This document shows, in pieces, positions 2-16,815 of a DNA stretch of 35,753 nucleotides. Positions within the stretch are counted from its first letter, which is position 1, and every line of letters starts with the position of its first letter. The DNA comes from Candidatus Zixiibacteriota bacterium (GTDB lineage: Bacteria; Zixibacteria; MSB-5A5; JAABVY01): the NCBI GenBank assembly GCA_014728145.1, contig WJMC01000149.1, positions 1 to 35,753 on the forward strand, in the 5' to 3' direction. The position numbers and the translations under genes are program-made. The notes under the pieces are model-generated. The model made no database searches. It saw nothing but the letters and a program-made list of their open reading frames with translations, and was not told the origin of the DNA.

Positions 2-811
2 CCGCTTGCGGAATCGATGATAGCCGGTACCGGCGTGGGTATGTCGGCTATGGGATTGCGGCCGGTAGTGGAGATGCAGTTCTCGGGATTTATCTATCCC
101 GCGTTTAACCAGATAATTTCTCATGTCTCCCGTCTGCGCACTCGTACCAGGGGGCATATGCACGTTCCAATGGTGATCCGTGCCCCCTATGGTGGAGGTG
201 TTCGTGCGCTGGAGATGCACAGTGAATCGATGGAAGCGATCTACGGTCATATCCCCGGCCTGAAGGTGGTTATGCCAGCCACCCCGTACGATGCCAAGGG
301 GTTGATGATTTCGGCGATAGAGGATAACGATCCGGTCTTGTTTCTGGAGCCGAAAAAGGTCTATCGCGCGATCAAGCAGGATGTCCCCGAGGAACCATAC
401 AGGATTAAACTCGGTACCGCCAAGGTTGTCCAGGAGGGCGAGCAGATTACTGTCGTCGCCTACGGCGCGATGTTGAAGACGGTTCAACAGGGTGTGGCGC
501 TGGCCAAAAAAGAAGGAATTTCGATCGAGCTTATAGATTTGCGTACGATATTCCCCATGGATACTGACACGGTCATGGATTCGGTCAAGAAGACCGGCCG
601 TCTGCTGGTCGTCCATGAGGGACCGCAGAGTTTCGGTACGGCCGCTGAGCTTATGGCTCAGGCAAACGAGGAAGCGTTCCTGTATCTGGAAGCTCCCCCC
701 ACCCGTTTGACCGGTTACGACACGATCGTGCCCCTGCCGATGGGTGAAGACTTGTATTTCCCCACCCCGGAGAGGGTCCACTACGAAATCAAGAAAGTTG
801 TCGAGTTTTAA
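2..811 (+). CDS. 2-oxoacid dehydrogenase E1 component, beta subunit (5' partial)
   Basis: The reading frame is open from base 2, so the N-terminus lies outside the window; 269 residues remain of a family usually about 325 long. It is the beta half of the thiamine-diphosphate E1 enzyme that decarboxylates a 2-oxoacid (pyruvate, branched-chain or acetoin type). The visible start, PLAESMIAGTGVGMSAMGLRPVVEMQF, was read in pieces: LAES, then GLRPVVEMQF, as in transketolase-like pyrimidine-binding domains. The motifs APYGGG and LEMHSES follow, and a transketolase C-terminal domain occupies roughly the last 120 residues (ITVVAYGAML, DLRTIFPMD, VVHEGP). The E2 gene starts 9 bases after its stop, so the two are co-transcribed, and E1 alpha should lie just upstream. 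The substrate cannot be decided: the MHSES form is closer to branched-chain enzymes, but this is only a leaning. Confidence 0.93.
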   Translation, partial: PLAESMIAGTGVGMSAMGLRPVVEMQFSGFIYPAFNQIISHVSRLRTRTRGHMHVPMVIRAPYGGGVRALEMHSESMEAIYGHIPGLKVVMPATPYDAKGLMISAIEDNDPVLFLEPKKVYRAIKQDVPEEPYRIKLGTAKVVQEGEQITVVAYGAMLKTVQQGVALAKKEGISIELIDLRTIFPMDTDTVMDSVKKTGRLLVVHEGPQSFGTAAELMAQANEEAFLYLEAPPTRLTGYDTIVPLPMGEDLYFPTPERVHYEIKKVVEF

Positions 812-820
812 GGAGGATTT

Positions 821-2185
821 ATGCTTTACGTATTCAAATTCCCGGATATCGGAGAGGGTATCACCGAAGGCAAAATCCTCGAATGGTATGTCAAAAAAGG
901 TCAGACCGTCTCGGAGGGTGACTCGGTCATCAAAGTCGAGACCGATAAAGTTGTGACCGATATCCCGATCCCTCGTGACGGCGTGATAAAAAACCTCTAC
1001 GGCAAAGAGGGCGAAGTCATAAATGTCGAGGACGCTTTAGTCGAAATGGAAGTCGAAGGAGAGGTCGCCGAGGAAGACCGTCCCGGGGCCGTCGAAAAAG
1101 AAACCGACGGAAAAGAAGCTTCCGCCGATGAAGTTGCCCATGCCGATACCGAAACCAAACCGGTTGAGGAAAAAGGCTACGGTGTGGTCGGCATGATCGA
1201 GGATGCCACAGGTGATGCATTTCTGCCATCCACCGGCGAGGGCCTGGAGGATAAGAAGGCGGCCGAAGATGCCGTCAAACCTCGTAAGAAAGCGCTGGCT
1301 ACCCCGGTGGCACGCAAGATGGCCAAAGACCTCGGGATAGATATCAACGAGGTCAAGGGCACCGGCCCCGCCGGACGTGTCATGAAAGAGGATATTCAGA
1401 AGGCGTTCGACGAGAAACAGTCGGGACCCGCTGTTCCCAGAAAGGGAAAAGCCGAAGAGATCAAGGTCGCTCCCGGACAGGAAGACCTGATCGAAACCGA
1501 AGAGCTGACCCAGATTCGCAAGACGATCATCAACCGCATGGTGCAGTCCAAACAGACCGCGCCTCATGCCACCGCTTTCGAAGAAGTCGAAGTCTCAAAG
1601 TTGGTTGCTCTCAAAAAAGAGAAAAAGGCCGAGCTGGCTGAAAAGGGTATCAAGCTCTCGTATATGCCTTTTATCATTAAGGCGGTTACCCTGGCTCTCA
1701 AACGTCATAAGACGCTCAACAGCAAACTCGACATGGCCAATAACCGGGCTATCTACCAGAAATTCTACAATATCGGATTCGCGACCGATACCCCGGACGG
1801 GCTGATGGTTCCGGTTATTCGCAACACCGACCGCAAGAGTATAATCGAGATAGCAGAAGATCTAAACGATCTGGCCGAACGTGCCCGTGACCGTAAATTG
1901 ACGTTAGACGAACTCAAGGGCGGGACTTTCTCGATCACCAACTACGGTTCGATCGCCGGTACTTATGGTGTCCCGGTCATCAATTATCCCGAGGTGGCGA
2001 TTCTCGGAATCGGCCGAATTATGAAGCGCCCGGTGGTGGATGACAACGACCAGATCGTACCCGGTCATATCCTGCCGCTTTCGATGAGCTTCGATCATCG
2101 GATCGTCGACGGTGCCCACGCGGCTAATTTCATTCGGGATCTGATGGCCATGCTGTCCGACCCGCTGACCATGTTAATGATGTAA
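821..2185 (+). CDS. Dihydrolipoamide acyltransferase (E2) of a 2-oxoacid dehydrogenase complex
   Basis: The 454-residue E2 core takes the acyl group from E1 on its lipoyl arm and passes it to CoA. Three domains are visible. The lipoyl domain is at about 1-78, with the modified lysine at K43 in ETDKVVTD. An acidic Ala/Glu/Lys-rich linker follows. The peripheral subunit-binding domain is at about 158-195 (ATPVARKMAKDLGID, GTGPAGRVMKED). The catalytic domain runs from about 225 to the end, with the active-site HRIVDG motif (H426, D430). There is one lipoyl domain, as in most branched-chain and Gram-positive-type PDH E2s. The start is fixed by an AAGGAGG ribosome site 5 bases upstream. The E3-like gene begins 13 bases after the stop, preceded by AAGGAGG. 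The lipoate-ligase-like gene at 3558 may supply K43 modification. Confidence 0.96.
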   Translation: MLYVFKFPDIGEGITEGKILEWYVKKGQTVSEGDSVIKVETDKVVTDIPIPRDGVIKNLYGKEGEVINVEDALVEMEVEGEVAEEDRPGAVEKETDGKEASADEVAHADTETKPVEEKGYGVVGMIEDATGDAFLPSTGEGLEDKKAAEDAVKPRKKALATPVARKMAKDLGIDINEVKGTGPAGRVMKEDIQKAFDEKQSGPAVPRKGKAEEIKVAPGQEDLIETEELTQIRKTIINRMVQSKQTAPHATAFEEVEVSKLVALKKEKKAELAEKGIKLSYMPFIIKAVTLALKRHKTLNSKLDMANNRAIYQKFYNIGFATDTPDGLMVPVIRNTDRKSIIEIAEDLNDLAERARDRKLTLDELKGGTFSITNYGSIAGTYGVPVINYPEVAILGIGRIMKRPVVDDNDQIVPGHILPLSMSFDHRIVDGAHAANFIRDLMAMLSDPLTMLMM

Positions 2186-2198
2186 GGAGGCACATACG

Positions 2199-3551
2199 AT
2201 GCAGACATACGATCTGATAATTATCGGAGGAGGCCCAGCCGGCTACGTGGGAGCGATCCGTGCCGCCCAGCTGGGCATGAATGTCGCCCTGGTCGAAAAA
2301 AACAAGATGGGCGGGATGTGCCTCAACTGGGGATGTATCCCCTCCAAGGCCTATATCGAAACCGCCAAACTGTTTGCCAGGCTGGGCAAAGCCAGATCTT
2401 TCGGAATCGAAGGTGTCAAGGCTAAAGATATTATGGTCAATTGGAAAAAAATGGTTTCGCGCAAAGATCGAATTGTGATGCGGCTGGTCAAGGGCGTTGA
2501 GTACCTGATGAAAAAAAACAAGGTTACGATTATAAACGGCGAAGCCAGGTTCACAGGCAAGGATAAAATCCAGGTTTCAGAAAGCGAGTACAGCGCCGAC
2601 AAATTCCTGATCTGCACCGGTTCGAGACCGGAAGAATTCCCTTATGCCGATAAAGTCGACGAGAAGAAGCTGGTCGAGATCGATCAGTTCTTTACCTTAA
2701 ACGAAGTACCCGACAATTTCCTGATCGACGGTTTCTCGGTCAACGCGGCCGAGATCGCGCAGATGTTGAGGCTGATCGGCAAGGAGGTTACAGTCTTTAC
2801 CGATCGCGAAGAGTTCGTCTTCTACCTCGATGAATCGCTGCGTGAGTTTGTCACTGACAAATTCAAGAAAAGCGGAATCAAGATCTTTACCAATGCCACG
2901 GTTACCAAGGACGCTAAAGACGGAGTTTACCTGGGCGATGAGTTCGTCAAGTGCGACATGATTATCAACAGCCGACATCGCCTGCCGGTCCTGCCGGATC
3001 TGGGTCCGAACGAACTGGAACTCGAACGAGGCGCGATTAAAACCGATGAGTTCATGCAGTCCTCGAGCGAGAATATCTATGCCGCCGGTGATGTGGCCGG
3101 GCAGTATTTTGCCCAGACCGCCTCGGCTATGGCCACGGTTGCGGTCAACCACATGAACGGAATCAAGCAAAAACTCGACTTATCCAAGATGCCCAGAAAC
3201 ATATACACCTTCCCCGAAATGGCAACCGCTGGAATGACCGAGGAAGAACTGAGGCAGAAAGGCATCGAATACAAAGTCGGAAAGTTTCCGTTATCAGTAA
3301 ACGGCAAGGCGATGATCGAAGGTGAGACAGAAGGATTCGTCAAGATCCTTTCGGAGACCAAATACGGTGAGGTCATGGGGGTTCATATCGTGGCACCGGA
3401 TGCTACCGACATGATCGCCGAGGCCGTGATGGCGATGTCTCTGGAGAGTACGGTCGAAGATGTGGCCCAGGTGGTTCATGCCCATCCGACTGTCAGCGAG
3501 ACGATGCTGGAAGCCGCTTTCGTGGCCGAGGACAAACCGGTTCATATATAG
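2199..3551 (+). CDS. Dihydrolipoamide dehydrogenase-like flavoprotein (E3) with degenerate NAD site
   Basis: At 450 residues this has the full length of class I pyridine-nucleotide disulfide oxidoreductases. The FAD-binding GGGPAG is at 10-15. The redox disulfide is C41/C46 (GGMCLNWGCIPSK). A second FAD motif, YAAGDVAG, is present, and the C-terminal dimerisation domain ends with HAHPTVSE, placing the catalytic pair at H429/E434. These fit oxidation of E2-bound dihydrolipoamide. The odd part is the NAD-binding domain: where the family has a GxGxxG stretch after the second beta strand, this protein reads LIDGFSVNAAE (175-185), so all three motif glycines are replaced. The acidic residue ending the next strand is also missing (VTVFTD). 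NAD use is therefore doubtful, although the operon position between E2 and the ligase-like gene makes an E3 role likely. No frameshift is seen. Confidence 0.9.
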   Translation: MQTYDLIIIGGGPAGYVGAIRAAQLGMNVALVEKNKMGGMCLNWGCIPSKAYIETAKLFARLGKARSFGIEGVKAKDIMVNWKKMVSRKDRIVMRLVKGVEYLMKKNKVTIINGEARFTGKDKIQVSESEYSADKFLICTGSRPEEFPYADKVDEKKLVEIDQFFTLNEVPDNFLIDGFSVNAAEIAQMLRLIGKEVTVFTDREEFVFYLDESLREFVTDKFKKSGIKIFTNATVTKDAKDGVYLGDEFVKCDMIINSRHRLPVLPDLGPNELELERGAIKTDEFMQSSSENIYAAGDVAGQYFAQTASAMATVAVNHMNGIKQKLDLSKMPRNIYTFPEMATAGMTEEELRQKGIEYKVGKFPLSVNGKAMIEGETEGFVKILSETKYGEVMGVHIVAPDATDMIAEAVMAMSLESTVEDVAQVVHAHPTVSETMLEAAFVAEDKPVHI

Positions 3552-3557
3552 ACTGCT

Positions 3558-4181
3558 ATGGCGATAGAGATCTCCGAAAAATATGACCTGCCCGATCTGA
3601 AATTGTACAGGTCGGGCAGTCTATCTCAATCCGTCATTGTCTGGCGCCCGGAGAAACTGATGGTAGTGATTGGCAAAGGCTCCGATCCTTCCGATGAGTT
3701 GATCACCGACGCTATCAGTGTTGATCATGTGCCGGTTATCCGGCGTGATACCGGCGGATGCGCTGTCGTTCTGTCTGCGGATATGGCGGTGGTATCGTTT
3801 TCGCTCAGAAACGATCCCAATAAGAAGAATCCCGAATATTTTCGTCTTTTCAACGACCTGATTATTGAAGCACTGAAAAAGCAGAGTATCAGAGGTCTCG
3901 GATTCAACGGTATTTCGGATATCACACTAAACGGCCTGAAAGTAGCCGGTTCAGCGATCTACCGCCGTCGTGAGAGTGTGCTCTACCACGTTGTCTTGAA
4001 CCTGTCCGGATCGACCGAGCAGATGGAACGCTACCTGAAGATACCTTCCCGACAGCCCGATTACCGTCGGAACAGGTCCCATAAGGATTTCGTGACTTCT
4101 TTTTCAGATCAGGGCGTTGAAGTTGACCTGGTCAGATTCGAAAACGACCTCAAAACATCATTTCTGCTGAATATCAAATAG
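3558..4181 (+). CDS. Lipoate-protein ligase A-like protein, catalytic domain only
   Basis: This 207-residue protein has the BPL/LplA/LipB fold signature. RRDTGGCAVV (about residues 61-70) matches the ligase RRxSGGGAV element, and LNGLKVAGSA carries the lysine expected to bind the acyl-adenylate. Such enzymes attach lipoate (LplA) or transfer octanoate (LipM/LipL type) to E2 lysines. Bacterial LplA is usually about 330 residues with an accessory C-terminal domain, which is absent here. It may be an amidotransferase-type enzyme, or work with a separate accessory subunit as in archaeal LplA/LplB. It begins 6 bases after the E3 stop, so it is translated with the dehydrogenase genes. The start is the first ATG; no strong ribosome site is visible, which suggests translational coupling. 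Ligase versus transferase activity is undecided. Confidence 0.8.
   Translation: MAIEISEKYDLPDLKLYRSGSLSQSVIVWRPEKLMVVIGKGSDPSDELITDAISVDHVPVIRRDTGGCAVVLSADMAVVSFSLRNDPNKKNPEYFRLFNDLIIEALKKQSIRGLGFNGISDITLNGLKVAGSAIYRRRESVLYHVVLNLSGSTEQMERYLKIPSRQPDYRRNRSHKDFVTSFSDQGVEVDLVRFENDLKTSFLLNIK
3588..3619. other. 12-bp inverted repeat (hairpin) inside the start of the ligase-like gene
   Basis: CTGCCCGATCTG and CAGGTCGGGCAG pair over 12 bp with one G-T pair, around the 8-base loop AAATTGTA. It lies 30 bases into the coding sequence. No T-run follows, so it is not a standard terminator. Confidence 0.6.
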
Positions 4182-4344
4182 ATTCCGAACTATAACCTCC
4201 TGAATCAGGCAAATTGTACAAATAATAGAATACTTTATTTGTATGATAAACATTGTGAAAAAAATAACATAATTTTCGAATCGTTTTCGTCCGAAACGTA
4301 TCTAAAAAATAAGATATATCGATACAACTGAAGGATAGTTGCAT
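4182..4344. promoter_or_regulatory. Intergenic leader of the cytochrome operon with a 9-bp palindrome
   Basis: This is an AT-rich 163-base spacer. TACAAATAA (4217-4225) and TTATTTGTA (4235-4243) form a perfect inverted repeat with a 9-base spacer, a shape suited to a dimeric regulator. An AAGGAT ribosome site at 4331-4336 precedes the ATG at 4345. No clear -35/-10 pair or T-tailed terminator was found for the upstream operon. Confidence 0.4.
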
Positions 4345-5931
4345 ATGAGGTTCCCCTGGTTGATAGTTACAATTATTGTAATACTTTTAATCACAATGTC
4401 TTCAGAAATCGGGGCTGTGACCGGCGACCATTCCGAATTCGAAATCTTAAAACAGGATTTTAAAACCGGGCCGGAGGTTACCGATGCCTGCCTGAGCTGT
4501 CATACAGAAGCCGCCAGGCAGGTTCACAAGACGATTCACTGGACCTGGGTATGTCCCAAATCGATCGACCCTATTCTGGGTAAGTCGGTGGTCATCAATA
4601 ACTTCTGTATCGCTCTACCATCTAACGAGTCGCGTTGCACAAGTTGCCATTCCGGTTACGGCTGGAGGGACAGCACTTTCGACTTCAGCTCCGAGCGCAA
4701 TGTCGATTGCCTGGTATGTCATGACCAGACCGGCACTTACGAGAAGTTTCCGACAGATGCCGGCCATCCGGCCTACGAAAAAAAAGAATTCGGCGGTCGC
4801 ATCTGGTATCCACCTGATTTGAGCTATGTGGCTCAGAATGTCGGTACTCCCAATCGGCATAACTGCGGAGTCTGCCATTTCTACGGAGGTGGTGGTGAAG
4901 GAGTCAAGCATGCCGACCTGGATGAGACCCTCGAACGTCCTACTCGCGACCTGGATGTTCACATGGACCGCGAGGGACTGAATTTCTCATGTATAGACTG
5001 CCATACGACAAAAGATCATGAGATCTCAGGACGATGCTACGCGGTTCCGGCCGCATCGGAAAGAGGGGCGTTTCCGCGCACGCCCGATGATAAACGGATC
5101 ACCTGTGAATCCTGTCATACAAAAACACCTCACCGGCAGGCCAAGATCAATGATCACATAGACAAGGTTTCCTGCCAGGCCTGTCATATTCCCTATGCCG
5201 CCAAGAAGCGCTACAGCAAGTTCTGGTGGGACTGGTCGAAGGCGGGTAAGTTCGATGAAAACGGTGATATGATCGTCGAAAAAGACGAACATGGCAATAT
5301 CACCTACCATACGATGAAGGGTGAATTCCGCTGGGACAGAATGACGGTGCCGGAATATGTCTGGTTCAACGGCTCGGCCAGCAATCATCTTGTCAGCGAC
5401 CTGATCAATGATACCACAAAACCGGTCAGGATCAACCGTCTCCTGGGTGATAAAGATGATCCGGAGTCTCGAATCTGGCCCACCAAGGTTCATCGTGGCA
5501 AGCAGGTTTACGATCCGATCAATCGGACTTTGATCATACCCAAGTTGTTCGGCCCCAAAGGCTCGGGCGCGTACTGGAAAGATTTCGACTGGGTCAAATC
5601 TGCTCAAAAGGGAATGGATTACGTCGGATTGCCGTTTTCAGGAGAGGTCGGCTTTGTTGAAACCGAGATGTACTGGCCGATTACCCACATGATTTCACCC
5701 GCTGAAGACGCGCTCAGATGCCAGGACTGCCACAGCCGTGAGGGCCGGCTGGCACAGTTAGGCGGTTTCTATATGCCTGGCCGGGACGCTTTCGAGGGAC
5801 TCGATTTCCTCGGCTGGGGTGTCGTGTTCCTCTCTGTTGCCGGAGTATTAGTCCATGCCGGCCTGCGAGTTGTCTTTAGCAGGAAAAACGACGACGATGA
5901 TGAGCCGGATGAGAGCGAGGTCGAATCATGA
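4345..5931 (+). CDS. Octaheme c-type cytochrome, tetrathionate reductase (Otr) family, membrane-anchored
   Basis: This 528-residue exported cytochrome has exactly eight CxxCH heme sites: ACLSCH, RCTSCH, DCLVCH, NCGVCH, SCIDCH, TCESCH, SCQACH and RCQDCH. The HKTIHWTW segment after the first heme and the overall layout match the octaheme tetrathionate-reductase family, whose Shewanella member reduces tetrathionate, nitrite and hydroxylamine in vitro. An N-terminal hydrophobic signal (about 5-20) sends it to the periplasm. A second hydrophobic segment near the C-terminus (from GLDFLGWGVV) and an acidic tail (DDDDEPDESE) suggest a C-terminal membrane anchor, whereas the Shewanella enzyme is soluble. 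I chose the ATG at 4345, with AAGGAT 8 bases upstream, over a TTG two codons earlier. Its stop overlaps the cytochrome b start. The physiological substrate is unknown. Confidence 0.88.
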   Translation: MRFPWLIVTIIVILLITMSSEIGAVTGDHSEFEILKQDFKTGPEVTDACLSCHTEAARQVHKTIHWTWVCPKSIDPILGKSVVINNFCIALPSNESRCTSCHSGYGWRDSTFDFSSERNVDCLVCHDQTGTYEKFPTDAGHPAYEKKEFGGRIWYPPDLSYVAQNVGTPNRHNCGVCHFYGGGGEGVKHADLDETLERPTRDLDVHMDREGLNFSCIDCHTTKDHEISGRCYAVPAASERGAFPRTPDDKRITCESCHTKTPHRQAKINDHIDKVSCQACHIPYAAKKRYSKFWWDWSKAGKFDENGDMIVEKDEHGNITYHTMKGEFRWDRMTVPEYVWFNGSASNHLVSDLINDTTKPVRINRLLGDKDDPESRIWPTKVHRGKQVYDPINRTLIIPKLFGPKGSGAYWKDFDWVKSAQKGMDYVGLPFSGEVGFVETEMYWPITHMISPAEDALRCQDCHSREGRLAQLGGFYMPGRDAFEGLDFLGWGVVFLSVAGVLVHAGLRVVFSRKNDDDDEPDESEVES

Positions 5932-6566
5932 AGAAGAGAGTCTTTTTATACAAACGTTTCGAACGATTCTGGCACTGGATGCAGGCCCTGATGGTGATCG
6001 TATTGCTCTATACCGGCTTCGAGGTGCATGGTACGTTCAATTTCATCGACTATCAACTGGCGGTTGACTTGCATAACACGGTGGTCTGGATTCTCCTGGT
6101 CTTGATTGCGTTCGCGATTTTCTGGCACTTTACGACGGGTGAATGGCGCCAGTACCTGCCCACCAAACAATACTTAAAAGAGATGATTCGCTATTACCTG
6201 GTGGGGATATTCAAAAACGAACCGCACCCTGCCGGAAAGACTGAGATATCGAAACTGAATCCGCTCCAGAGGCTGACATATCTGGGTTTAAAAGTGTTGA
6301 TCTTCCCGGTTCAGATTATCAGCGGATTCGCGTATTATTACTATAATGATCTGGATGGTTTCGGGATCGGGATTCCACTGGGGGTGATAGCGTTCGTACA
6401 TACCGGTGCGGCTTACCTGATGATGGCTTTCGTGGTGGCCCATGTTTACCTGACCACTACCGGGCATACGCCACTTTCGAATATCAAGGCCATGATTACA
6501 GGCTGGGAAGAGTTAGAGACCGATTCAGGAAAGCACAGGGGAGAAACAGCCAGCCTCAAGAGTTGA
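5928..6566 (+). CDS. Cytochrome b561-type membrane subunit (thiosulfate/tetrathionate-reductase-like)
   Basis: This 212-residue protein has four hydrophobic helices: about 19-30, 50-68, 117-138 and 150-175. The histidines typical of the bacterial b561/Ni-hydrogenase cytochrome b family lie in or beside them: H16 (RFWHW), H49 (DLHN), H158 (FVHTG) and H172 (VAHVY). Such proteins bind two b hemes and carry electrons from membrane quinol to a periplasmic partner. The start codon overlaps the stop of the octaheme cytochrome by 4 bases (ATGA), so the two are translationally coupled and very likely form one quinol:acceptor oxidoreductase. A strong GC hairpin follows at 6607. Confidence 0.9.
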   Translation: MKKRVFLYKRFERFWHWMQALMVIVLLYTGFEVHGTFNFIDYQLAVDLHNTVVWILLVLIAFAIFWHFTTGEWRQYLPTKQYLKEMIRYYLVGIFKNEPHPAGKTEISKLNPLQRLTYLGLKVLIFPVQIISGFAYYYYNDLDGFGIGIPLGVIAFVHTGAAYLMMAFVVAHVYLTTTGHTPLSNIKAMITGWEELETDSGKHRGETASLKS

Positions 6567-10950: not shown

Positions 10951-11742
10951 TTAGAGTCCCAGCATCTTGATTTCGTAATCGAATTTGGAGGGTTTGAGGC
11001 GGATCAACCAGCCATCGCCATATGGATCCTGGAGCGTGCTGTCGGGATCATCGAGCACTTTCTGATTGACATCGATAACCGTCCCGGAGAGCGGGGTGAC
11101 CAGTGAATGAGATTGCAGGTCAGAAGAGAAGACCTGTAGAAGGACACCTCCCTGGCGAAGTTCATCGCCCTGTTCGGGAAGCGAGACTGTCTTGATCTGC
11201 CCGACCGTGTGCAGGAAGGTGCGCTTGACGCCCAGAAGCACTGTTCCATCCTCCTGAGTCATCAGCCAGCTGTGATCGCCGATAGTCTTGAATCCACTTT
11301 TTTCGGGCTGGCTGGAATCTGTCTTGGCCGCACTGTCATCATCATCGACCGATTCATTCTCATCTTTTGACCGCACAAGTTCCGCGGCCCGATGGAGTAC
11401 TCCCAGGAGTTCTTTTTTGGTAAACGGTTTGGCGATATAGTCGAACGCGCCCAGTTGAGTGGCCTGCAGGGCGGTATTAATGGTGGCATAACCGGTAACC
11501 ATGATGATCGGCAGATCGGGATGATCTTCCTTGACCATCGACATGAACTCGAGCCCGTCTATATCCGGCATCATCAGGTCGGTAAGGATTATATCTATCT
11601 TGTGCTGGTCTATCTTTTCAAGAGCCGGGCGTACCGCCAGGCTTGTGAAAACCGTAAAATTTTCCTTGCGCAGATGCTTTTTGACGCTGTCTAAAACGAT
11701 CTGTTCGTCGTCAACCACCAGAACATTCAAACTGCGTTGCAT
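10951..11742 (-). CDS. Response regulator fused to a GcvH-like (lipoyl-type) domain
   Basis: This 263-residue protein has two domains. Residues 1-122 are a receiver: acidic pair D11/D12, phospho-acceptor D55 (LTDLMMP), T83 and K105 (IAKPF). After a Ser/Asp-rich linker (125-148), residues about 155-263 follow the glycine-cleavage H protein along their whole length: DHSWL, GDELRQGG, TPLSGTVIDVN and the hallmark DPYGDGWLIRLK. The stretch holding the lipoylated lysine in GcvH (ESVKA) here reads SSDLQ (206-210), so the lysine position is L209 and lipoylation is not expected. No DNA-binding domain is present, so the output is probably protein contact. It lies 31 bases downstream of its cognate kinase. 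The start is supported by AGGAG 6 bases upstream. Confidence 0.9.
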   Translation of the reverse strand: MQRSLNVLVVDDEQIVLDSVKKHLRKENFTVFTSLAVRPALEKIDQHKIDIILTDLMMPDIDGLEFMSMVKEDHPDLPIIMVTGYATINTALQATQLGAFDYIAKPFTKKELLGVLHRAAELVRSKDENESVDDDDSAAKTDSSQPEKSGFKTIGDHSWLMTQEDGTVLLGVKRTFLHTVGQIKTVSLPEQGDELRQGGVLLQVFSSDLQSHSLVTPLSGTVIDVNQKVLDDPDSTLQDPYGDGWLIRLKPSKFDYEIKMLGL

Positions 11743-11773: not shown

Positions 11774-13585
11774 TCAAGTTTCCACTATGGGAAGGATTAT
11801 CTTGAATATCGCACCGCCGTTGTCGGCCATGTCGATTTCGATCGTGCCCTTATGACGTTCTATAATACCCCAGCTGACTGCCAGGCCGAGACCGTTGGTG
11901 CCCTTGGTTGAAAAAAACGGCTCGAATATTTTGTCGATCAGGTTCTCCGGTATTCCCGGGCCGTTATCCTCGACCTCGATTATGGCCCTGTTGTGGCGTC
12001 GATCATAAATAGTCGAAAGGTGTATTTCCCCCTTGCCCTTCATCGCATCGGAGGCATTGAGCATCAGGTTTAGAATCACCTGTTGCAGTTGTTGTGGATC
12101 GCCGGAGATATCCACCATGTTTTCATCGATTTTCTTCCTGATTGCAATATTACGAAACTGCGGAAGCCGTTCAACCAAAGACAGTGTCTGCTCGATGATC
12201 TGGTTGGGATTTACCTGTATCAGGTGGGGAGCTTCCTGGCGTGCGAAATCCAGCAGGTTCCTGACGATGTCTCGGCATCGGATGGTCTCGCGGATGATGA
12301 CGTTTAAATCTTCGTTCATCGGGTCATCTTCCGGAACTTCCTCGGCCATGTCTTCGGCGTATGATAAAATACCTGTTAAAGGGTTGTTGATTTCATGTGC
12401 CACGCCGGCCGCGAGCTGTCCCAGCGCTGAGAGCTTGGAGGACTGGATTAACTGGTCACGAAGTTCGCGCTCGGAGGTGACATCTCGCATAATCGTGCAG
12501 ACACCCTGGACCTGCCCTTTGTAGTCGTTGAGTGGGAAACGCACTGTCTGGAAATGATGATCGCGCCCGTCGATATTGATGACTTCTTCATAGGTGCGAT
12601 GACATTTGCAATCGATCACTTCCTGGTCGTGATGCTGAATCGTCTGGGCCAGGTCATGGGGCAGGATTTCTTCGGCCTTTTTGCCGATAAAATCATCCGG
12701 CCTGTGGTCGAAGGCGCTTGCTGTGACCGGGTTGACGATTATGTACCTGCCGTCAAGGTCTTTCATCGAAATCCAGTCATTGGCCGAATTGATGAAGCTT
12801 CGAAAGCGTTCCTCAGCGGTTTCGACCTCACGCCTGAGCTTGACCTGCTCTGTGATTCGATGCCAGGTCGCCAGGATCGCCTGCGGATTGCCATCGGAAT
12901 CCAGAAGAGGCTTGCGGGTCACCTCCCAGTGGGTTTCATCCGGGGGAGGTGTCATCCAGATCGAGGTAAATGAATCAGCCTGATTCAGGGTCTCATCCAG
13001 GATAGCTGTGTCATCCCGGCAATGCTTTTCGAAACTCGTCCCGGCAAACATTTCCGGACAGGTTTTCCCTACCGCCTCCGAGGGAGGCAGACCTACGAAC
13101 TTGCTGAAATTCTGGTTGATTCGGATCGCTTTCTTGTCTTTGTCAAGTACCACCAGAAGCTCGGGGATGTTGTCGACCAGTTGCTGTAAGAAATGACCTT
13201 CCTGTTCGAGTTTTTGCTCAAGTTCAGCCAGTTCCTCGATCTTGCGGTTCTGTTCTTTTTGGGCATTCAGGAGGTCCCAGAAAATACGCGCAAAAGTATG
13301 GTCGATCAGCTTGACACCGGGCGGACGACTGCGCTGAATCTTCTCCAGCACATCATCTCTGCCGGTCAGCTCGATAATTGTGGCAACCTCCGGAATAGCG
13401 ATCGCCTTGATCATGTCGGTCGTGGTTTCAATACCCTGCTCGCGGGCAAATATCATTCCAGGTGCCTCCGGATCGGGATCCATCACGCAGACGATATTGA
13501 AGGTGAGCTCCTTGAGGAAACTTCCGCTGGTGAGTTCTATGATTTCCCGGCAGGCACGGCCCCCACCGATAATGACAGTTTTCAT
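11774..13585 (-). CDS. Cytoplasmic histidine kinase with N-terminal Rossmann-like domain and two PAS domains
   Basis: The order in this 603-residue kinase is as follows. A Rossmann-like domain spans 1 to about 110 (TVIIGGGRACRE, VCVMDPDPEAPG, IELTGRDD), of the type that binds dinucleotides or CoA. A short coiled coil covers about 110-137, then PAS about 138-258 and PAS about 262-380. HisKA carries phospho-acceptor H397 (GVAHEINNPL). The HATPase holds the N box LNASDAM, DNGPGIP and TNGLGLAV. No membrane helix is seen, so it should sense a cytoplasmic ligand such as NAD(P)(H); that is inference. The response regulator starts 31 bases after its stop and the kinase-like gene ends 53 bases before its start, so the three form one operon. 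The ribosome site is weak. Confidence 0.93.
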   Translation of the reverse strand: MKTVIIGGGRACREIIELTSGSFLKELTFNIVCVMDPDPEAPGMIFAREQGIETTTDMIKAIAIPEVATIIELTGRDDVLEKIQRSRPPGVKLIDHTFARIFWDLLNAQKEQNRKIEELAELEQKLEQEGHFLQQLVDNIPELLVVLDKDKKAIRINQNFSKFVGLPPSEAVGKTCPEMFAGTSFEKHCRDDTAILDETLNQADSFTSIWMTPPPDETHWEVTRKPLLDSDGNPQAILATWHRITEQVKLRREVETAEERFRSFINSANDWISMKDLDGRYIIVNPVTASAFDHRPDDFIGKKAEEILPHDLAQTIQHHDQEVIDCKCHRTYEEVINIDGRDHHFQTVRFPLNDYKGQVQGVCTIMRDVTSERELRDQLIQSSKLSALGQLAAGVAHEINNPLTGILSYAEDMAEEVPEDDPMNEDLNVIIRETIRCRDIVRNLLDFARQEAPHLIQVNPNQIIEQTLSLVERLPQFRNIAIRKKIDENMVDISGDPQQLQQVILNLMLNASDAMKGKGEIHLSTIYDRRHNRAIIEVEDNGPGIPENLIDKIFEPFFSTKGTNGLGLAVSWGIIERHKGTIEIDMADNGGAIFKIILPIVET

Positions 13586-13638: not shown

Positions 13639-14604
13639 TCATCGCAAGGGAAAGTCCTGATCCAGCATACGGTAATAATCATCCATCAGGTCACTCAATG
13701 TATAATAGACCTTGCGAGGCCGGATCGTGAAATGATTCAAAATAGCGCTCAGGCTATCGGGGATATACGGGTAGAGCTTCTGCAGGTTCATTATCCTGTA
13801 CTCGTAAAAAGCTGATCCATCTTCCGGAACAAGGCTGTTTTTGGCTTCATCGGTAAACTCCTTCGAGCGCATTACCTGTTGAAAGGAAGTGATGCCCTTA
13901 CCGACTGCGTAGTTGAGAATGTTACCGATACTCCATGTGTCAAAGTCAGATACATTCTGCTTGAGATCGAAATCTATCCAGCGATATTGCCCGGTTTCAG
14001 GTTCGATGATGATATGGTCATTGCGAATATCGCCGTGACAGTATTTGTGTTCGTGCAGAAAACTGATAGCATCGATTGCAGCTACCAGGTTGTAAAGGAT
14101 GCGTGGCAGATCTTCATGGAAATACTGCTCATGAGATTTGGAGATGGAGTGGATGTAGTTGAAAAAAGTCTGGCCGGGTATAAAGTCGATCACCCGTACG
14201 TTATTGCCCTTTTCGTCATAAGTCGTGTAGCCCTGCATGAATCGGCGATCGCCTTTTACCAGTTCAAGGACCTCACCTTCCTTTTCCGGACTCCGGTAGC
14301 AATGGATTTTGAAGATGCCGATATGGGCGAAAAAGTCTTCGTGGAAAACCGTCTTGATAATCTTCTGTTCGCCGGTTTCGAAGTCATACGCTGAAAAGAC
14401 CCAGTACTTGGGCTGACCGCCGATTCCGAACCTGGTTTCATGCTTGTTTCCCCGTACCACGAAATCACGGCCATCGAGGCGGATTATATCCCCCCGCACG
14501 ATTCTCATCCAGTCGGAAGTGTCAACCACAATCGAGGGTGTATCGATGTAGCGCCAACCGGTCAATTCGATAATGCGTTGTTTGAGTCGCTCTAGATCAG
14601 TCAT
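13639..14604 (-). CDS. Atypical protein-kinase-like protein
   Basis: This 321-residue protein has a kinase-like fold. A candidate ATP lysine is K84 (QKIIKTVF), followed by a hinge-like VIDFIPG (138-144). The catalytic loop is HGDIRNDH (190-197), with D192 as the catalytic aspartate. The magnesium-binding segment is WIDFD (D211), in place of DFG. In both Ser/Thr kinases and aminoglycoside-type kinases the residue five after the catalytic aspartate is asparagine; here it is H197, although N195 is nearby. Activity is therefore plausible but not assured. The N-terminal 60 residues are an extra region not recognised. It is the first gene of the signalling operon with the histidine kinase and the GcvH-like regulator, so it probably acts in the same pathway. 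A 10-bp palindrome (TTACATGTAA, 14611-14620) lies just upstream of the start. Confidence 0.75.
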   Translation of the reverse strand: MTDLERLKQRIIELTGWRYIDTPSIVVDTSDWMRIVRGDIIRLDGRDFVVRGNKHETRFGIGGQPKYWVFSAYDFETGEQKIIKTVFHEDFFAHIGIFKIHCYRSPEKEGEVLELVKGDRRFMQGYTTYDEKGNNVRVIDFIPGQTFFNYIHSISKSHEQYFHEDLPRILYNLVAAIDAISFLHEHKYCHGDIRNDHIIIEPETGQYRWIDFDLKQNVSDFDTWSIGNILNYAVGKGITSFQQVMRSKEFTDEAKNSLVPEDGSAFYEYRIMNLQKLYPYIPDSLSAILNHFTIRPRKVYYTLSDLMDDYYRMLDQDFPLR

Positions 14605-15101: not shown

Positions 15102-15449
15102 TTATGGAGATAGTATCTTTTTAAATTGTAACATCGAGTTAACGGTCGTTTTCATGTCGGTCGGGCTGCCGATTTTGAGCTTGTCCTTGCGCTTGTAATA
15201 ATCCAGGCAGGTCCCACAGCTGAGGATTTCAGCTCCCTCCTTTTCGAAGGCCTCCAGGCTGTCCAAAACCTGCGAGCCTTCGGTGGTCAGAAATATGCCC
15301 GAGTTCATGCATACGATTTTAGCGGGAATCCGTTCAGATTCGAGAATCATCTTGAGGTAACTCTGCATCAGTTTCTCACCCAGGTCGGGTTCTCCGTCTC
15401 CGATCGTTGATGATCCCAGAAACAGCATTAAATCGCTTTCGATAGCCAT
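15102..15449 (-). CDS. YedF/DsrE-like small protein
   Basis: This 115-residue protein matches the C-terminal DsrE-type domain of the YedF selenium-metabolism family. The features seen are LGSSTIGDGEPDLGEKLM, CMNSGIFLTTEGS and the CGTCLDYY element with C78 and C81. Typical YedF has an N-terminal TusA/SirA domain, which is missing here, so this is a stand-alone DsrE-like unit. Members are thought to handle reactive sulfur or selenium, but the reaction is not established. It is the last gene of a - strand run, 25 bases after the CpeT-like lipoprotein. Its ribosome site is AGGAGG upstream of the ATG. No selenoprotein machinery is present in the window. Confidence 0.82.
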   Translation of the reverse strand: MAIESDLMLFLGSSTIGDGEPDLGEKLMQSYLKMILESERIPAKIVCMNSGIFLTTEGSQVLDSLEAFEKEGAEILSCGTCLDYYKRKDKLKIGSPTDMKTTVNSMLQFKKILSP

Positions 15450-15474: not shown

Positions 15475-16815
15475 TTATTCTTGTGACAGAAGCATATCGT
15501 CGCCAAATAATTTGTACATACGTGCGAATTTCGGTTTTAGAGCTTTGACCGCCTTTATCACTTCTTTTTTGTTTCCTGTAACGATTGCTGTTTTCATGGT
15601 ATTTAGAGCTTTACTGTGAGCTTCGCGGTAGCTTCTGAGTGTCTCGATCTTTTCAGTATCGAATGAGTACAGGGACGGGTCGAAGTCGGCAATCAGGACT
15701 GCCTGCCAGCGTTTCTGAGCTTCTGCAGTTAGATCGCTGATGTGCTCCAGGTCGATTTCGTTGAGACGATCGCCGTATTTCAACTGCACACTTTCAAGAA
15801 GCCGGACCATGATGCCGTGATAGGAATTGAGGTAGTCTATGTAGTACTCGAGATTCAACTCGTTTCTCAGACTCGTCATTGGCATTTTGGCCTGCTCCAG
15901 AAGTTCATGAGCGGCGATCGGATTTCCCTCCGCCTCCAGTGCGCCCGCTGAGCTTACGAAGAAATTCTCGACCAGATCAAACAGGTCCTGCCAGGTCTGG
16001 CTGTCAGTATAATCGTAATGATTTGACCTGAAAACCGCCCAGGTGGACAGCAGGCTTTCGAGAGCGAGTTTGGATTTATCGAGCTTTCCCATATCCGTCA
16101 GTGCCAGTGAGGCGATGTACGCCTTATCGAGGGCAATCATATCCATAACCAGCGGGATTTCATCTGCATCGTATAGCTTGTCGAATACATAACCGCCTTT
16201 TTCAGCACCCCAGACTTGCATACCGGCAGAATCGAAACCTCGATCCCAGCTGGTCAGGTATTCATTGGTCAAAAACACCTCGCTTTCGGCGAAACTGGCT
16301 CCCCGAAGTGTCGATTCGCAGGCTTTTTCCTCGGTACTGCCATGGAAAGCGGAATCTCCCAGCGGATGTAGCCTGATCTCGCATCCCTGCCTGAGGATCA
16401 ATGAATCAGGATTCAGTTTCTCGAGAGGAATTTCATCTTTCCACGCTCCAGCATAGGTGAGAGGATCGGGCAGTTCATAGACCGCGCTCTCGTACGTCGT
16501 GTCATCTATCCTGCTCACCCGGTAAACTCGCTGGCGGTATGGTTTCTGATGATACTCTGAGACTGCCTGCTCGACATACAGCCAATGCGCGTCAGAGCGA
16601 TGACGCCAGACCGGCACCATCTTGAGGCGGATATCGTAATAGCTGGAATCCTCGATCGACTGACGGTAGCTCGAAAACGATCCGCTCATCCACGATGTCA
16701 GGCGTGCCAGATCGCTGTCTATCTTGACGGCTTGCTTCTGCTCTGCATCTGATGCGCAACCAGAAAATATGATCGTGAAAACCAAAATTGTAACTGCAAT
16801 TATACTGGATTTCAT
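15475..16815 (-). CDS. Lipoprotein with CpeT/CpcT-like domain
   Basis: This 446-residue lipoprotein has a signal ending in IIFSGC, with C20 as the lipidated cysteine. Residues about 35-215 resemble the CpeT/CpcT family: LARLTSWMSGSFSSYRQ, then WLYVEQA, RQRVYRV and LRQGCEIRL. The family is a 10-stranded barrel known as a bilin lyase in cyanobacteria, with relatives in heterotrophs whose ligand is unknown. No phycobiliprotein is present here, so lyase activity is not implied. Residues about 225-446 are mostly helical and not recognised. The gene starts 22 bases after the methyltransferase stop and leads into the YedF-like gene, so the products are co-expressed. The localisation is the periplasmic face of a membrane. 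Confidence 0.75.
   Translation of the reverse strand: MKSSIIAVTILVFTIIFSGCASDAEQKQAVKIDSDLARLTSWMSGSFSSYRQSIEDSSYYDIRLKMVPVWRHRSDAHWLYVEQAVSEYHQKPYRQRVYRVSRIDDTTYESAVYELPDPLTYAGAWKDEIPLEKLNPDSLILRQGCEIRLHPLGDSAFHGSTEEKACESTLRGASFAESEVFLTNEYLTSWDRGFDSAGMQVWGAEKGGYVFDKLYDADEIPLVMDMIALDKAYIASLALTDMGKLDKSKLALESLLSTWAVFRSNHYDYTDSQTWQDLFDLVENFFVSSAGALEAEGNPIAAHELLEQAKMPMTSLRNELNLEYYIDYLNSYHGIMVRLLESVQLKYGDRLNEIDLEHISDLTAEAQKRWQAVLIADFDPSLYSFDTEKIETLRSYREAHSKALNTMKTAIVTGNKKEVIKAVKALKPKFARMYKLFGDDMLLSQE

Follow-up and report, generated by a model that had tools for sequence, protein, structure and literature searches.

What does a response regulator do when its output domain resembles the H-protein of the glycine cleavage system (GcvH) and lacks the lysine to which lipoate is attached? 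This question is raised by a gene at positions 10951 to 11742 (minus strand) of the 35,753-nucleotide stretch analysed here (the window), contig C149 in a Candidatus Zixiibacteriota genome of 3.12 Mb. The open reading frame opens with an ATG and encodes 263 amino acids, and the plus strand of the same interval is broken by stops. The original prediction, which gave no strand, described the product as a receiver fused to a GcvH-like domain, and Pfam matches bear this out: Response_reg covers residues 7-114 (11401 to 11724, minus strand; E = 2.1e-30) and GCV_H residues 155-255 (10978 to 11280, minus strand; E = 3.6e-19; score 69 bits, cut-off 22). Judged from sequence, both matches are far beyond chance. 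A variable linker joins the two domains, and both framework strings quoted earlier, TPLSGTVIDVN and DPYGDGWLIRLK, are found in the protein. A Pfam search of the whole protein found no DNA-binding domain, and no relatives of this protein, here called REC-GcvH, were found on viral contigs.

The receiver residues had been described as intact, and D11, D12, D55 (the phospho-acceptor), T83 and K105 are indeed invariant across 25 REC-GcvH proteins from Zixibacteria, as expected of a response regulator. The output domain is also recovered by genome search and Foldseek. With 64 bits for TIGR00527 (cut-off 115.85) and 70.8 bits for PRK01202 (cut-off 117), REC-GcvH stays below the NCBIfam equivalog cut-off for gcvH. 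The source genome harbours a canonical GcvH (L001, G000:C13:4169-4528), which keeps the lipoyl lysine, is adjoined by a GDC-P gene and shows 30-32% identity with REC-GcvH.

In the alignment residue 209 of REC-GcvH is a leucine and stands where canonical GcvH proteins, the copy from the source genome among them, have the lipoyl lysine. The hairpin in question (residues 204-214; 11101 to 11133, minus strand; defined by alignment and model) exceeds that of canonical GcvH by one residue, with D208 as the insertion, so the earlier statement that L209 occupies the lysine position holds in a wording that hinges on the placement of this gap. Not one of the 25 Zixibacteria proteins has any lysine within aligned residues 204-214. 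The alignment of GcvH-like domains comprised these 25 proteins, 12 REC-GcvH of other groups, 8 proteins of a second receiver-fused type, 62 lysine-bearing GcvH and 33 other lysine-less domains; the 62 were sorted by the lysine column and therefore all have a lysine there by definition. The 37 REC-GcvH represent three or more bacterial groups, and in none of them does this column hold a lysine, so the leucine is not a lone mutation. In the Zixibacteria members the column holds leucine, methionine or threonine, and five of the 12 proteins from other groups have a lysine elsewhere in the hairpin segment.

The predicted structure agrees with the domain assignment. The REC-GcvH model has a mean pLDDT of 77, a pTM of 0.49 and a linker with pLDDT below 50, which makes the single domains credible and their mutual arrangement and orientation unreliable. 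Foldseek lists receivers first and H-proteins next, and the latter (3klr, TMt 0.78; 3a7a, 0.77; 3a8j, 0.76 with an rmsd of 1.9; 1onl, 0.71) place the output domain in the H-protein fold, as the original prediction had it. Strands 200-206 and 211-215 flank a turn at 207-210 and form the hairpin which aligns with the lysine-bearing hairpin of the H-proteins.

The altered hairpin is itself conserved. All 37 REC-GcvH have the one-residue-longer form, and D208 is present in 25/25 Zixibacteria proteins and in 7/12 of the others. H212 is found in 36 of 37 (25/25 and 11/12; a glutamine in L043), at a position which is serine or glycine in H-proteins; no histidine is listed at this position for the 62 lysine-bearing GcvH. 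Q197 occurs in 37/37, and F176 in 34/37 where canonical GcvH has alanine or glycine. Conversely, the glutamate preceding the conserved first tryptophan, present in 46 of the 62 GcvH, is not among the residues listed for the 37 REC-GcvH, and the aspartate four residues past the lysine, common in canonical GcvH, is missing from the Zixibacteria proteins. Because the lysine column is free of lysine throughout while H212, Q197 and F176 are retained, the domain is under a constraint of its own and not decaying; the absence of the lysine is old and shared, and the loop is separately conserved. In a tree of the domain the 37 REC-GcvH and one protein of the second type form a single clade (support 98/88), which is sister to the clade of canonical GcvH (100/94) and not nested within it. 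As this tree is built from 107 columns, has no outgroup and leaves the root unplaced, it cannot tell loss of the lysine from primary absence. Of the original prediction, in which a lipoyl carrier seems to have been turned into an output, the missing lysine is supported; as to history, the ancestor of REC-GcvH may have had the lysine or may have been without it. An output for protein interaction or ligand binding, as that prediction put it, can reasonably be assumed for the domain.

The fusion, the missing lysine and the fold had thus been recognized, whereas the operon, its unusual kinase and the homologous clusters had been left out. REC-GcvH is the last gene of a unit of three on one strand, preceded by a histidine kinase (603 aa; 11774 to 13585, minus strand) and, as first gene, by a protein-kinase-like protein (321 aa; 13639 to 14604, minus strand), with gaps of 31 and 53 bases. 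The whole unit is present in the same order and strand in 18 of 21 Zixibacteria loci (20 regions plus the window); of the other three, two are truncated where their contigs end, and L135 lacks a kinase-like gene in its vicinity. The outer neighbours mostly vary between these loci. In the window, a short protein at 15102-15449 aligns with the selenium-linked YedF family over its C-terminal half alone (TIGR03527, 2.7e-38, profile positions 83-193), and a lipoprotein-like protein at 15475-16815 contains a domain of the CpeT/CpcT family (E = 1.3e-44), which is known from phycobilisome lyases. Positions 4339-6566 encode a multiheme cytochrome, recognized by eye, and next to it a protein of the cytochrome b561 type (Pfam Ni_hydr_CYTB).

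Within 133 Zixibacteria genomes the N-terminal domain of the kinase occurs in 28, in a single copy each. REC-GcvH is likewise found in 28, 25 times full length with one per genome and three times partial (in G003 split across two contigs, in G124 and G021 a fragment where the contig ends). Both proteins are present in 27 genomes and neither in 104, and both mismatches lie at contig ends (a kinase near one in G114, the REC-GcvH fragment in G021). The Fisher p value of 6.5e-26, which includes the 104 genomes with neither, is overstated because a single operon is inherited jointly, and the co-occurrence partly reflects shared descent.

The histidine kinase combines a Rossmann-type (NAD-binding-like) N-terminal domain (13244 to 13585, minus strand) with two PAS domains, HisKA (H397) and HATPase, as judged from Pfam and alignment. 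Its catalytic residues are invariant in the alignment, and no transmembrane segment is evident by eye. Pfam has no match for the N-terminus in the window kinase. The NAD-binding part of the acetaldehyde dehydrogenase model TIGR03215 matches 17 of 19 kinases (best 1.3e-7), the match of the window N-terminus on its own being weak (E = 0.0019), and a profile of the domain finds 1nvm_B in the PDB (E = 0.0019). In the model (pLDDT 89) Foldseek ranks 1nvm_D at the top (TMq 0.64). Within the first 114 residues G7 and G9 of a glycine-rich loop and D36, which follows strand 2 (30-35 in the model), are invariant among the 19 kinases, which is the combination of glycine-rich loop and acidic residue typical of NAD-binding Rossmann domains. 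On fold similarity, NAD(H) is a reasonable guess for the putative ligand, and a CoA-related ligand is likewise possible.

The first gene product resembles eukaryotic-type protein kinases. Pkinase matches 18 of 18 such proteins (best 4.2e-9), the window protein with 30.8 bits falling just under the cut-off of 31.7, and titin kinase is found in the PDB (1.2e-7). K84, E109, D192 and D211 are invariant and, assigned from motif and not from structure, correspond to the catalytic lysine, the glutamate, the HxD aspartate and the DFG aspartate (motifs HGDIRNDH and DFD). The metal-binding asparagine after the catalytic aspartate is absent, and an unusual histidine stands there in 18/18 (HGDIRNDH).

Outside Zixibacteria the same components recur in other settings. 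At L173 all three genes are present but arranged differently, the kinase-like gene being convergent. Among genomes of the G135 group (labelled Bacteroidetes) 6 of 61 have REC-GcvH; in most of the loci read it is accompanied by genes for FeS, NrfD and cytochrome-like proteins, and as a rule by a second receiver-GcvH protein. FeS, NrfD and cytochrome genes adjoin REC-GcvH homologues at L227-L229, L231 and L234, and HdrA and an HdrB-like gene do so at L232 and in G170. In the phylum of L074 (labelled Desulfosoma) the Rossmann-type kinase domain is present in 81 of 297 genomes; six of the same 297, L173 being one of them, pass a strict search for REC-GcvH, some on the receiver alone. Of 19 long GcvH-like genes, 10 have a Rossmann-type kinase within 5 kb, a distance that takes in about 0.5% of the sequence (p = 7e-19), in a set of 32 genomes picked for having the kinase domain and with coordinates read by hand. 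Lysine-less GcvH domains and the Rossmann-type kinase are thus linked in two ways, through REC-GcvH and through these neighbourhoods. NrfD was also considered as a co-occurrence clue and rejected, as its presence in 121/133 Zixibacteria is too general to inform.

Several of these clusters contain GcvH-like proteins of other kinds. Lysine-less ones, 304-344 aa long and with a pair of Cys-rich motifs (L074, L202-L204, L207, L209-L211), have Rossmann-type histidine kinases and NtrC-type regulators encoded nearby; among those read closely, HdrA/HdrB/HdrC-like genes stand alongside at L074 and L211 and an HdrA-like gene at L203. A FeS protein, NrfD and at least one GcvH-like protein are encoded together at L047, L073, L090, L111, L227-L229, L231 and L234; here nearly all GcvH-like proteins are lysine-less, some have receivers or apparent membrane segments, and the clusters apparently have no published name. 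A protein of about 180-200 aa, by eye similar to archaemetzincin, recurs beside the NtrC-type regulator in GcvH-like clusters (L090 4379-4924; L111 11733-12290; L211 12704-13276; L202 12028-12639).

What, then, might REC-GcvH do? Because there is no lysine for lipoate, its output probably docks on another protein and carries no chemistry itself, and we lean, with some reserve, towards a response regulator that acts in this way. For this phosphorelay we infer a ligand class, a phosphotransfer, a docking step and a target as follows. The histidine kinase would use its Rossmann-type N-terminus and PAS domains to bind a metabolite or dinucleotide in the cytosol, autophosphorylate at H397 and, as adjacency and co-occurrence of the two genes suggest, phosphorylate REC-GcvH at D55. 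The phosphorylated receiver would change its shape and thereby expose or reposition the H-protein-like domain, which could then dock on a target enzyme by the face near the lysine-less hairpin (D208/L209/H212) and alter its activity. The kinase-like protein probably works on the target or on one of the other two proteins, histidine kinase or REC-GcvH. As target, a redox enzyme of the Hdr, FeS or NrfD type would be most likely; as no Hdr or NrfD gene stands beside the unit in Zixibacteria, this suggestion is carried over from the other groups.

A different partner would be expected if the domain were an H-protein mimic regulating glycine cleavage or lipoate attachment, where it would rival lipoylated GcvH for GcvP, GcvT, dihydrolipoamide dehydrogenase or lipoate ligase. 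The preserved GcvH fold and framework would fit, and all 26 Zixibacteria genomes with REC-GcvH that were examined have a GDC-P match, though the one in G092 is weak and partial, so that in Zixibacteria this explanation may still apply. A second GcvH match is present in the listed Zixibacteria genomes bearing full-length REC-GcvH, and the window has PDH genes (E1-beta, E2 and E3-like) followed by a lipoate-ligase-like gene (2-4181, by eye), but about 7 kb off and on the opposite strand. As a general role, however, control of glycine cleavage is weakened by G170 (main contig 3.42 Mb), which has three REC-GcvH genes and no GDC-P match, and by G141, which has neither a GDC-P match nor another GCV_H match, even if absence from these assemblies is no proof of true absence. 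Moreover, GcvH occurs in nearly all Zixibacteria with or without the unit, and both acidic residues mentioned above, before the first tryptophan and four past the lysine, are missing in the Zixibacteria REC-GcvH. We therefore regard the mimic as unlikely.

Rather improbable, too, is that the domain serves as input, binding a small ligand or metal (e.g. by D208 and H212) and signalling back to the receiver. C-terminal sensory domains do occur on some receiver proteins, and the two residues are invariant in the 25 Zixibacteria proteins, H212 also in nearly all others; yet D208 in only 7/12 outside Zixibacteria and the glutamine for H212 in L043 mean that no complete metal site is common to the family. 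The intact H-protein fold might also suggest a carrier whose lipoate or other acyl group sits on some residue outside the lysine column, but the hairpin is without lysine in all 25 Zixibacteria proteins, and in the five proteins from other groups with a lysine in the segment it stands off the lysine column, which leaves this very improbable. Metagenome assemblies as source genomes could raise the suspicion of a decaying fusion or an assembly artefact, to which we give practically no credence in view of 25 full-length copies, one per genome, with strongly conserved motifs.

Docking onto a target protein would make REC-GcvH a new type of response-regulator output, acting on metabolism instead of transcription. 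The full picture, in which a dinucleotide-sensing kinase and a kinase-like partner steer a redox complex via a phospho-switched lysine-less H-protein domain, as an undescribed class of two-component system, is put forward only tentatively. Lysine-less H-protein folds, recurrent near Hdr and NrfD genes and apparently unnamed, would then be tied to phosphorelay control, and the REC-GcvH family (28/133 Zixibacteria genomes and relatives elsewhere) offers a clear signature for testing. In the literature searched, which was mostly non-subscription, neither REC-GcvH nor any GcvH-type response-regulator output is described, though domain-architecture databases may list the combination; a search of the same literature for Rossmann/NAD sensor kinases likewise found no paper matching in full.

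With the glycine cleavage H-protein (PF01597) REC-GcvH shares the fold and the motifs LPxxG, PxSGxVxxxN and DPYxxGW; it differs by the missing lysine, the longer hairpin, the histidine in place of serine or glycine, the lack of the glutamate before the first tryptophan and the fused receiver. LbpA of the Hdr-like sulfur oxidation pathway is likewise a GcvH-like protein beyond glycine cleavage and is encoded with Hdr-like genes, but it binds lipoate by a strictly conserved lysine (PMC6067878), whereas REC-GcvH has no such lysine and has a receiver. Comparable, too, are the GcvH-like proteins of the Hdr and FeS-NrfD clusters (compared for L074, L202-L204, L207, L209-L211, L073, L090 and L111, and for L037-L039 with neighbours left aside), which also have a lysine-less domain and two-component neighbours, but which lack a receiver, contain Cys-rich or membrane segments and fall on separate branches of the tree. 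Finally, response regulators with non-DNA-binding outputs share with REC-GcvH the combination of receiver and effector, the receiver of REC-GcvH being close to the NtrC type.
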